From assembly GCA_949288335.1 (NCBI GenBank), contig CASEJU010000047.1, forward strand, positions 1-35,621: a stretch of DNA of 35,621 bases. The letters run 5' to 3'. The notes beneath the pieces are model-generated. The model made no database searches. It had not been told where the DNA came from and saw only the letters and a list, made by a program, of their open reading frames with translations. The position numbers and the translations under genes were made by a program. Of this stretch, positions 2,177 to 4,949 are shown one piece after another. Source of the DNA: an uncultured bacterium. GTDB taxonomy: Bacteria > Bacillota_I > Bacilli_A > RF39 > UBA660. Positions within the stretch are counted from its first letter, which is position 1; every line of letters begins with the position of its first letter.

Positions 2177-2935
2177 TTAATATACCACTTTAAATGTTCT
2201 GATGTTAAATCCACCGATTTTTTGATAGTAATAATTTATTAATGTTTCCATGTTTTTATACATCACGTTTGGTTTATCTAACTCAAAACATCTTGTGTAT
2301 AATTTAATAAACTCACGTTCCGGAAGTTTAAATACATGATATTTTCTTCTGTATTTTTCATCCGTTAAAATTTTATAAATCTTAGTTTTAGGCAACTTCG
2401 GCATACTTAAATACTCTGTGTATGCATCGTAAACAAGCCCTAACAGATTATAATATATTAAATTAAATTGTGGGTTATTCTCTTTTAAACACACCTTTAA
2501 TTCATCTAAATAGTCCCATAAGAAGTAATTATTCATATCTAATTTTTCAGAATTAATATTATTAATTGGTTTATCAATATACTCTAAAGCTTTATCTTGA
2601 AGATTTTTTACGCTTCCATCTAAATCATAAATTATTTTTCCATAAGCAAACATATTAGCAGTAGATAAATCATTATCATTAAACTCTTCTTCCATTTTTT
2701 TCTTTATTTTCCATACTGGACGCATAAAATATTCTATTAAGTAACTATTTGAATCAACATTTGCTCTTTCCTCATAATTCACATCATTTCTCAAAACCAA
2801 ATAAACATTTATATCAGAGCACTCGGTTTGACTATCATTTGCATAACTACCATATAAAATAGCCCCGATGACATTATCATCCTCTTCATACTTCTTTAAA
2901 AACTCCCTTAAGGCTAGTTTCCATTTTTCTATCAT
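2177..2935 (-). CDS. Nucleotidyltransferase-fold protein (ANT/KNTase-like), first gene of the T-box operon
   Basis: The 252-residue protein has the nucleotidyltransferase signature LYGSYANDSQTECSDINVYL at about residues 28-47. The G-S pair and first Asp are present, but the second position of the usual D-x-D is Asn, so catalysis may be weakened or lost. A later acidic strand residue (IEYF, about residue 71) could be the third carboxylate. The C-terminal half is helical, as in aminoglycoside adenylyltransferases and related substrate-binding regions. The start at 2935 follows AGGTG; the GTG codons at 2941 and 2938 belong to the leader. It follows the T-box terminator directly, so its expression should respond to uncharged tRNA-Thr. 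The substrate is unknown; a resistance enzyme, a tRNA-linked factor or a regulator are all possible. Confidence 0.7.
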   Translation of the reverse strand: MIEKWKLALREFLKKYEEDDNVIGAILYGSYANDSQTECSDINVYLVLRNDVNYEERANVDSNSYLIEYFMRPVWKIKKKMEEEFNDNDLSTANMFAYGKIIYDLDGSVKNLQDKALEYIDKPINNINSEKLDMNNYFLWDYLDELKVCLKENNPQFNLIYYNLLGLVYDAYTEYLSMPKLPKTKIYKILTDEKYRRKYHVFKLPEREFIKLYTRCFELDKPNVMYKNMETLINYYYQKIGGFNIRTFKVVY

Positions 2936-2957
2936 CACCACACCTACTTTCCTTTAA

Positions 2958-3169
2958 AGAAAAAAGCACATCCTTTAAAAGGAGTGCTTTTTGCACGGTA
3001 CCATCCTTACCTTTAACTTAATTTGATAACGTGTTTTTAAAACACGGGACTTCCTTTCGGTTCCTGCTTAAAAAGTAGTAATTTTATAACTATTTTGCCT
3101 AATTTTCACCAACCTTAGGCTCTCTTTAAAACATCATTATAAAATCATGTCTTTTATAATTGCATTTAT
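2958..3169 (-). promoter_or_regulatory. T-box leader, probable threonine (ACU) specificity
   Basis: The core T-box sequence GGATGGTACCGTGC lies at 3006-2993 on the minus strand, directly before a terminator. Upstream are a stem I apical part (AGAGAGCCTAA, loop, TTAGGC) and paired strands TTTTATAAT and GTTATAAAAT. An internal loop holds TTACTAC, in which ACU (3079-3077) followed by A fits a Thr specifier. Hairpins CCGAAAGG and CGTGTTT/AAACACG lie between stem I and the T-box. A Thr specifier agrees with thrS two genes downstream. The specifier loop is compact and was found by eye, so the codon is less certain than the T-box itself. Confidence 0.85.
2960..2992 (-). terminator. T-box attenuator terminator
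   Basis: On the minus strand AAAAAGCACTCCTTT and AAAGGATGTGCTTTTTTC form an 11-base-pair stem ending in a U run, immediately 3' of the T-box core. It is the conditional terminator that binding of uncharged tRNA would disrupt. Confidence 0.85.
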
Positions 3170-3175
3170 ACCAAA

Positions 3176-3204
3176 ATAATACTACAAAACACTTCTTAAG
3201 TCAA
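3176..3204 (-). promoter_or_regulatory. Promoter of the T-box/thrS operon
   Basis: The -35 TTGACT (3204-3199) and -10 TATTAT (3181-3176) are separated by exactly 17 bases. The predicted start near 3169 opens the T-box leader. Confidence 0.8.
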
Positions 3205-3272
3205 TTAATATTATTACTAAATTTAGACATAATAAAAACATAAATCTGTTTTATAATTAAATGGGTGATAAA

Positions 3273-4949
3273 ATGAATAAGAACATTAAAAAAATATTAA
3301 TTATTATACTTGTAATTATTTTAGCTATCATATTATATGCCGTAATCAATAAAGCGTACACCGCAAAGATAAAAGAAAAAGTAAACGACGTATCTTGGCT
3401 TAGAAAAAACGTTAAAATTTCGGAAGATTACTCCATTGGTTCAAGCATACTATCAGTTAATAAAATAAGTGATATTGATGTTTATAGTGATGCTTACCAA
3501 AAGGTAATAAATGAAAAAATAGAAGAACTTAAAGACAAAACCTATGATTTTGAAGATCCACTTTTGATATATAATGCTTACGGAACCAATAAATCGGGCA
3601 TTAACATGTACTTTAACACCAATGAAGAAAGCTACGTAACTTATACAATAACTGCAGAAGATAAAGATATTAAGGATTATACTAAAACCTTGTATAACGG
3701 TGGAGAAAATAATTTAACTAAAAACCATGAATACCAAATAACCGGTTTGGTAGCAGGTGAAATGCAGACAATAAAATTTAAGCTATATAATAAAGATAAT
3801 AAAGTAATCGAAACAAACACAATAAACGTATTTATGCCTGAAACAAGCGTCGACATAAAACTTGATGTAAAAAATGGTAAGTCTAAAAGCAAGTTAGAAG
3901 ATGGATTATACGCGGTCCTTGGCCATGACAAAAACTTTAATTCAAACATATACTTATATGATAATGACGGTATATTAAGAAGCGAAATACCACTTAACTC
4001 TTATAGAACAGATAGAATAATAAAAATAAATGATAACTTATTATACAGTTATACAAAAAGAGATTTTGCTCTTGTTAATAGATTAGGTAAAGTTATTAAA
4101 ACATATAAAATAGATGGTTATTACATGCATCATGATTTTATATATGATGATAATACAAACAATTTAATCATACTCGCTAATAAAGATGATGCCAACACCA
4201 TAGAAGACCGGGTTATAACCTTAAACTTAGATACTGGAAAAACCAAAGAAATAATTAATATGCAAGACTTTGCAAAAGACTTTTATGACACGGCAGTTGC
4301 ACCAGAAGATGGAAATACATACGGAGGTAACGAGCTTGATTGGGTACACTTAAATAGTTTATCAATAAATGGAAATGATATAGTTTTATCATCAAGAGAA
4401 TTTAGTACGATATTTTGTATAAGTGACTTTTATAATAATCCTACTTTAGAATACGTAATTGGAGATCCTTCAATATACGAAGGAACATCATTAGAAAGTT
4501 ATGCGTTAAAAAAGCAAGGAGACTTTATATCACAAGCAGGGCAACATACCATAACCTATTTGTTTGACGAAAGTTTAGGCGCCGGCAGGTATTATCTTAT
4601 AATGTTCAATAACAATTACGCCGGATCAAGAACAAGACCTGATTTTAATTGGGAACCATTCGTTGGAGCTGGTGATTATAATAACGGAGATGCATCAAAA
4701 TATTATAAATACTTGGTTGACGAAAATAATAAAACGTTTACCTTGGTAGATAGCTTTGATCTTGATTACTCATCAATCGTTTCAAGCGTGGAGCAATTAG
4801 ATAAGAACTTAGTTTCATCATCAGGGATGGATAATTCATTTAGTGAATATGATAGTAATCACGTACTTATAAGAAAATTTAATTACTCTTCTAAAAAATA
4901 TGCATATAGAGTATTTAAGTATAACTTTAATAGTTTCTGGTATTATTAA
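3273..4949 (+). CDS. Membrane-anchored arylsulfotransferase (ASST family)
   Basis: Arylsulfate sulfotransferases move a sulfate group from one phenolic ester to another phenol through a sulfo-histidine intermediate. The 558-residue protein has one N-terminal membrane segment (about residues 6-27) and no lipobox, so the rest should face outward. An N-terminal beta-sandwich-like region comes first, then the propeller. The family's catalytic region is visible as YYMHHDFIYDD (about residue 290), ELDWVHLNSLSI (about 355), LSSREFS (about 374) and GQHTITYLFDE (about 418); these supply the His and Arg residues expected from AssT. The ATG at 3273 has GGGTGAT just upstream, so it is preferred over 3261. 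The gene diverges from the T-box operon and ends at a bidirectional terminator. The natural donor and acceptor are unknown. Confidence 0.85.
   Translation: MNKNIKKILIIILVIILAIILYAVINKAYTAKIKEKVNDVSWLRKNVKISEDYSIGSSILSVNKISDIDVYSDAYQKVINEKIEELKDKTYDFEDPLLIYNAYGTNKSGINMYFNTNEESYVTYTITAEDKDIKDYTKTLYNGGENNLTKNHEYQITGLVAGEMQTIKFKLYNKDNKVIETNTINVFMPETSVDIKLDVKNGKSKSKLEDGLYAVLGHDKNFNSNIYLYDNDGILRSEIPLNSYRTDRIIKINDNLLYSYTKRDFALVNRLGKVIKTYKIDGYYMHHDFIYDDNTNNLIILANKDDANTIEDRVITLNLDTGKTKEIINMQDFAKDFYDTAVAPEDGNTYGGNELDWVHLNSLSINGNDIVLSSREFSTIFCISDFYNNPTLEYVIGDPSIYEGTSLESYALKKQGDFISQAGQHTITYLFDESLGAGRYYLIMFNNNYAGSRTRPDFNWEPFVGAGDYNNGDASKYYKYLVDENNKTFTLVDSFDLDYSSIVSSVEQLDKNLVSSSGMDNSFSEYDSNHVLIRKFNYSSKKYAYRVFKYNFNSFWYY

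Follow-up and report, generated by a model that had tools for sequence, protein, structure and literature searches.

A threonine T-box leader ahead of a nucleotidyltransferase-like gene, a small reading frame and thrS in an uncultured bacterium

The T-box leader and the genes that follow it

The window is the whole stretch of DNA that was analysed, 35,621 nt from an uncultured bacterium. Near its start lies a T-box leader followed by three genes, all on the minus strand, to which the coordinates of this locus refer. Starting from the leader (2977–3169), the strand passes into a gene termed NT here (2177–2941), continues through a small open reading frame (ORF; 1865–2164) and then enters thrS (118–1887). 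NT encodes a protein of 254 aa resembling nucleotidyltransferases of the ANT/LinB fold, identified from the ORF, Pfam matches and the predicted fold. Its ORF starts with a GTG at 2941, with the ATG at 2935 the likely start as it fits the starts of relatives. The small ORF, taken from the ORF list and unmentioned in a preliminary description of this DNA, encodes a basic protein of 99 aa and overlaps the start of thrS by 23 nt; neither Pfam nor NCBIfam matches it at E 1. The threonyl-tRNA synthetase (ThrRS) of 589 aa was assigned by Pfam and NCBIfam (726.6 bits with TIGR00418). Pfam recognizes its editing, core and anticodon domains, and finds no TGS domain. The end of NT is 290 nt from the start of thrS, with the small ORF lying between. 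By this gene order the three genes would be carried on one transcript, and the cotranscription of NT with thrS proposed in the preliminary description agrees with this apparent single transcription unit.

The leader aligns with the full length of the T-box model RF00230 (positions 1–219 of 219) with a score of 66.2 bits (E = 2.3e-14 in a search of 371 bases). The gathering score of the model is 93 bits, so the leader is absent from a default scan. The five covariance-model T-boxes of the genus score between 62.6 and 78.3 bits, all below the Rfam gathering score. When five other loci of the genus were scanned with Rfam, the leaders of L057, L058, L062 and L068 matched RF00230, and L014 did not. 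The latter belongs to genome G008 (loci L014/L154), which has NT, the small ORF and thrS with no detectable T-box; the T-box core is present in the other 16 of 17 genus loci. A NUDIX gene stands before NT in G008. The consensus structure of 16 aligned genus leaders comprises 43 predicted pairs, of which 21 show at least one compensatory change.

A promoter-like site, TTGACT-17-TATTAT (3176–3204), was located by a sequence scan, and similar boxes are visible ahead of most genus leaders. It is the best of four such sites in the AT-rich leader stretch, where they are not rare (shuffled sequences average 1.5). An intrinsic terminator hairpin with a U-rich 3′ end occupies about 2961–2992, with a predicted folding energy of −14.6 kcal/mol (z = −4.1) that was equalled by none of 200 shuffles. 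It contains a 1-nt bulge, which is why a simple terminator scan found none at the leader. The sequence UGGU of the antiterminator bulge is found at 3000–3003. By sequence and predicted structure the leader is a genuine T-box. Its score below the gathering cut-off would be compatible with a chance resemblance, but the compensatory changes in the 16 leaders, together with the promoter-like site and the terminator in place, make this extremely improbable. The leader itself would be expected to control transcription.

The specifier codon is ACU (3077–3079, columns 107–109 of the genus alignment). It is ACU in 15 of the 16 genus leaders and ACC in one, both of them threonine codons; the 3′ side of the specifier bulge reads ACUA, or ACCG in one genome. 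The specifier call of TBDB favours nucleotides 2–4 counted from the end of the bulge (PMC7778990). Applied by eye to T-boxes of the same genome, the bulge rule gives GUA, CUA, UUC, AUG, UCU, UAC and GCU, matching valS, leuS, pheS, metS, serS, tyrS and alaS respectively. An eighth control, before an operon containing aspS, reads AAC. Because the same rule reads all seven unambiguous controls correctly, the threonine specificity of the window leader is secure as a sequence-based assignment. The T-box core, the terminator and the likely ACU specifier of the preliminary description are thus borne out.

Against the assignment stands the set of tRNA genes: the 28 tRNA loci of this draft genome yielded two tRNA-Thr species, of anticodons UGU and CGU, and no tRNA-Thr(GGU). 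Both species end in ACCA, and their discriminator A is able to pair with the final U of UGGU. Neither pairs fully with ACU, and the UGU species would require a U–U pair. The same mismatch occurs with the serine (UCU) and alanine (GCU) T-boxes of this genome, for which only UGA and UGC tRNAs were seen.

The arrangement is general within the genus. NT was found in 17 of the 18 genus genomes searched (drafts, many of them metagenome assemblies), and leaving the small ORF aside thrS lies directly downstream of it in all 17. The small ORF was found by tblastn in nine of 17 loci, including that of the window. G016 was considered as a genus genome without NT, and is uninformative because its assembly lacks thrS also. 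The preliminary description had staked its reading on a threonine specifier, to be checked by a covariance search, and on the NT–thrS pairing extending beyond this genome. Both hold, with threonine specified in 16 of 16 leaders, no non-threonine specifier, and the pairing present in every genus genome with the locus. One member of the genus is Candidatus Aphodocola excrementigallinarum (L070). Partial thrS identity to the window is 62–83% in five loci (L004, L007, L008, L014 and L015) and 88–97% in the other 11; it is possible that thrS has been replaced in situ in these five, with NT staying put.

The nucleotidyltransferase-like protein and its catalytic aspartates

NT exceeds the Pfam cut-offs for Polbeta (30.6 bits, cut-off 26.9) and NTP_transf_2 (25.3 bits, cut-off 21). 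An AlphaFold2 model based on 19 sequences (pLDDT 88) superimposes on the ANT(4′)/kanamycin nucleotidyltransferase over 229 residues (Z = 13.2, 12% identity) and on the lincosamide nucleotidyltransferase LinB over 217 residues (Z = 12.4). Foldseek and structural alignment place small-molecule adenylyltransferases as the nearest full-length folds. The Pfam scores and the fold together assign NT to the nucleotidyltransferase (Pol beta) superfamily, in agreement with the earlier view that the first gene of the operon encodes a nucleotidyltransferase and not the synthetase. From the modelled fold the substrate would most likely be a small molecule.

Both domains of NT align with ANT(4′) and LinB, and 11 of the 17 genus proteins keep SDID. 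NT differs from them in being only about 10–16% identical, in the Asn of the window motif, and in its chromosomal position next to thrS. It shares the nucleotidyltransferase core with the antitoxins HalB (Hailong) and MntA, but lies below the curated scores, and in a scan of five neighbouring proteins Pfam reports no HEPN domain. The scores with the resistance families (12.8 against a cut-off of 350 for ANT_4p_I, 17.8 against 540 for LnuH and 16.7 against 450 for LnuF) and with the MntA type VII antitoxin model (21.3 against 60) are so far below cut-off that NT is placed no more finely than the superfamily. NT has no match in the plasmid collection. As a candidate defence gene it gave only weak matches, to the short candidate models PDC-S09 and PDC-M05A.

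The motif that contains the first two catalytic acids is SDIN in the window NT (2807–2818), the second Asp being replaced by Asn45. The acidic positions are therefore D43, N45 and E70, departing from DxD with a third acid. SDIN occurs in four of the 17 genus proteins (the window, L010, L012 and L017) and SDID in 11. L006 and L007 have SSID, losing the first Asp instead, so that the second position is Asp in 13 proteins and Asn in four. All 17 have Glu or Asp as the third acid, and Gly31, Ser32, Lys102 and Asp106 are invariant. A catalytic Asp is missing in six of the 17 in total, requiring three changes on the tree. The genus proteins form a single clade (support 100/100). The branch that joins the window protein with L002 has support of 87/91, and is not among the best supported. 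In contrast to the genus proteins, SDxD is intact in 43 of the 43 outside homologues of the tree. Excluded from the tree were five loci that are duplicates, as well as two short rows, and the latter have SDID also.

The altered proteins remain constrained. For pairs in which both members lack a catalytic Asp, dN/dS is 0.14 (L010/L012), 0.12 (L006/L007) and 0.19 (L010/L017), and it is 0.04–0.16 in the other seven of the ten pairs compared. Loss of the catalytic Asp is thus recurrent in the genus, while NT remains under purifying selection. The Asn at the second catalytic position noted in the preliminary description is present in the window, but is rejected as a conserved catalytic trait as it occurs in just four of the 17. 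Judging from the superfamily, the Asn form of NT is probably inactive, so the window protein is probably related to the Pol beta superfamily by fold and not by catalysis.

Genes between the T-box and thrS in the bacterial family

Genomes of 117 members of the bacterial family, mostly one per genus, were searched. thrS was found in 111, and the upstream DNA was read for 106; the five loci left out comprise three cut by contig ends, one with only a second type of thrS, and G114. An ORF of at least 50 aa lies between the T-box motif and thrS in 60 of the 106 loci, and in 34 thrS follows the T-box directly. The rest comprise three short gaps, three longer gaps without a counted ORF and six loci without a T-box motif. 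For 53 of the 60 intervals none of 200 mononucleotide shuffles contained so long an ORF, and for the other seven one to three did. The motif search was checked with the covariance model on ten loci. The covariance model finds a T-box in four of the six loci that lack the motif, and L243 and L153 have none by either method. L235, L145 and L234 add further examples, so that such a passenger ORF is present in at least 63 of the 106 loci. Passengers are closely apposed to the synthetase gene: of the 60, 55 have their stop no more than 35 nt from where thrS starts, and 30 or more overlap thrS. By tblastn with the first 100 residues of the window protein, thrS starts at the same point across the 106 loci. 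Some family genomes (L152, L157, L158, L160 and L168) have a second ThrRS-like gene that is shorter and differs at its N-terminus; in L152 (6635–8221) this gene stands after a covariance-model T-box.

The passengers are apparently diverse. At E 0.001 the 63 passenger proteins initially listed, among them NT and the small ORF from two genomes of the genus, form a largest group of 25; a further seven groups hold two to six proteins each, and 18 proteins stand alone. Clustering used 20 shuffled decoys per protein, and the largest group had 25 members in a single pass and 26 after iteration. The groups are approximate because the best single-pass decoy reached 1.1e-4. Iterated clustering without decoys merged 43 of the 63 and was dropped. 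Two passengers are metallo-beta-lactamase-like by eye. Some short passengers were considered as relatives of ribosomal protein L29; the best match (E = 0.00077) was below the cut-off and is not claimed. As a passenger, NT is confined to the genus of the window in the loci examined. In G124, from another genus, NT abuts thrS and no T-box was found.

Members of the largest group have a core in common. This thrS-linked family (for example L184, L196, L139, L150 and L161) consists of proteins mostly of about 130–240 aa with a basic tail and motifs resembling FLxxYxGI and ILVKDxxGNIxPYxNP. A 14-row profile built from thrS neighbours matches in 29 of the 117 family genomes, and in 28 of these the match is on the thrS strand and no more than 500 nt upstream of the gene. 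Overall, 28 of the 30 genomes with a match have it linked to thrS. Thirteen of the 28 linked matches come from genomes that contributed to the profile, which did not recover one of its own rows (L215). Of the 17 matches outside the training set 15 are linked to thrS, the exceptions being G019 (E = 5e-4) and G157 (12.7 kb from thrS). In G018, G023 and probably G085 the family member is located 5′ of the T-box instead of between the T-box and thrS. Among 247 genomes of the class, all five profile matches fall inside this bacterial family. No Pfam family is common to the 14 members, the best match to a solved structure has E = 0.023, and Foldseek gave no match at E 0.001. A possible relationship of the C-terminal hairpin to Sda is weak (Z = 3.9 over 38 residues) and is not relied on.

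Passengers also occur in other synthetase units. The genome of the window has 11 T-boxes, ten of them assigned to synthetase units, and six of these ten begin with non-synthetase genes. The leading genes are a 117-aa ORF (leuS), a NUDIX gene (metS), DUF1653 with a 165-aa ORF (serS), a DNMK-type kinase (alaS), two genes (aspS), and NT with the small ORF (thrS); valS, pheS, tyrS and hisS directly follow their T-boxes. The genes preceding the synthetases at loci L278–L282 of this genome (NUDIX, DNMK kinase, DUF1653, hydrolase and small ORF) are unrelated. In four more genomes, in which 30 of 41 T-box places were read by eye, leuS is preceded by a small ORF in two and alaS by a kinase in two; leuS follows the T-box directly in two. 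Passengers after T-boxes are therefore a habit of the bacterial family.

Relatives of NT outside the genus stand beside thrS (L102) or serS (L100 and L072) in three of 49 loci (45 distinct). Adjacency was defined as within 50 nt on the same strand, in flanks of 1.5–4 kb or ended by the contig, and was sought with twelve synthetase queries, the Tyr query being a wrong ORF. L100 forms a T-box(UCU)–serS–NT unit. L094, with its longer stretch L169, holds a T-box–alaS–methyltransferase–NT unit, in which NT is one gene from alaS (methyltransferase by eye). By a rough estimate chance alone would give about 0.7 neighbours of this kind, and the links outside the genus are accordingly only suggestive. 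Beside the serS–NT unit of G098 is a reverse transcriptase-like ORF (by eye; L152, 2180–3507), accompanied by an Rfam RT-5 RNA (49.3 bits).

Possible roles of the nucleotidyltransferase

The explanation that we consider probable is an ordinary threonine T-box/thrS operon with a recruited, partly decatalysed NT passenger. The T-box would read uncharged tRNA-Thr through ACU and UGGU, preventing termination, and at low Thr-tRNA one transcript of NT, the small ORF and thrS would be made. NT would be a lineage-specific passenger, recruited between the T-box and thrS before the genus diversified. Its original activity was most likely nucleotidyl transfer to a small molecule, an activity that most species have most likely kept. 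In three lineages, including that of the window, it would probably be without catalysis yet retained, probably through a binding role or translational coupling to thrS. Against its being a mere passenger, the genus-wide retention of NT beside thrS could mean a specific role. One such role would be action on tRNA-Thr or ThrRS, for example nucleotidylating the 3′ end of the tRNA or the synthetase in threonine starvation. This would account for the linkage throughout the genus, for the outside relatives beside thrS and serS, and for those within T-box serS and alaS units. It is distinctly unlikely given that the closest full-length folds are small-molecule enzymes, that a catalytic Asp is lost in six of the 17, that some outside neighbours are expected by chance, and that apparently unrelated proteins fill the slot in sister genera. 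The part in tRNA-Thr handling suggested in the preliminary description finds no support from the folds or from the other occupants of the slot. Indeed, since other genes ride there in sister genera, co-regulation by itself argues only weakly for a function with tRNA, and does not prove one in amino-acid metabolism.

The three independent losses of Asp, with dN/dS of 0.12–0.19 in the affected pairs, could also mean that in this genus NT serves without catalysis, as a binding partner or regulator, or that it is chiefly a translated spacer coupling thrS translation to an upstream ORF, as the closeness of most passengers to the thrS start might suggest. This has some chance of being correct, but the retention of SDID in 11 proteins and the four invariant residues fit it poorly; NT itself ends well short of thrS with the small ORF between, and a mere spacer would not preserve an enzyme fold. 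A related proposal is that proteins serving ThrRS or tRNA-Thr have a place of their own in the interval from the T-box to the TGS-less thrS. NT would then be the non-catalytic, nucleotide- or tRNA-binding version of this genus, and the thrS-linked family the version in other genera; we judge this proposal unlikely. Lastly NT might inactivate a ThrRS inhibitor or other antibiotic, the drug raising uncharged tRNA-Thr and so inducing the T-box. That would explain both the ANT/LinB fold and why a drug-modifying fold is under T-box control. However, the presence of NT in every searched genus genome with the locus, the lack of a match in the plasmid collection, scores far below cut-off with the resistance models and the repeated loss of the catalytic Asp render it improbable.

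As an ordinary threonine T-box operon, the locus resembles the Thr T-box/thrS leaders of Firmicutes (RF00230) in its Stem I threonine specifier, UGGN bulge, terminator/antiterminator and thrS target, and differs in that a nucleotidyltransferase and then a small ORF precede thrS. Of 34 Firmicutes, at least 29 keep ileS, alaS, serS and thrS under T-box control (PMC2494555), and T-box specifiers have already served for assigning functions to unknown genes (PMC2494555; PMC7778990). A search of the open literature, with two central T-box surveys outside its scope, found no paper joining a T-box, a nucleotidyltransferase and thrS. T-box regulation is known; new are the set of genes in the operon, the recurrent loss of a catalytic Asp and the slot that passengers occupy. 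The case illustrates both the value and the limit of T-box-based assignment of function: the leader reports threonine control, and other genes of the bacterial family ride in the same slot. The Asp loss and the thrS-linked family are targets for asking if ThrRS depends on a partner when it lacks a TGS domain.

The surroundings also bear some likeness to Bacillus subtilis, where ytxC is located between dnaI and thrS. In the window Pfam identifies DnaB_2 and DnaI-like genes close to thrS, and by eye such genes are close to it in several relatives too; NT is a different protein from YtxC, and is downstream of the T-box. Elsewhere in the genus, several members have the DnaI-like gene directly 5′ of the leader, and in the window an arylsulfotransferase-like gene (3261–4949, plus strand) is located between the DnaI-like gene and the T-box.
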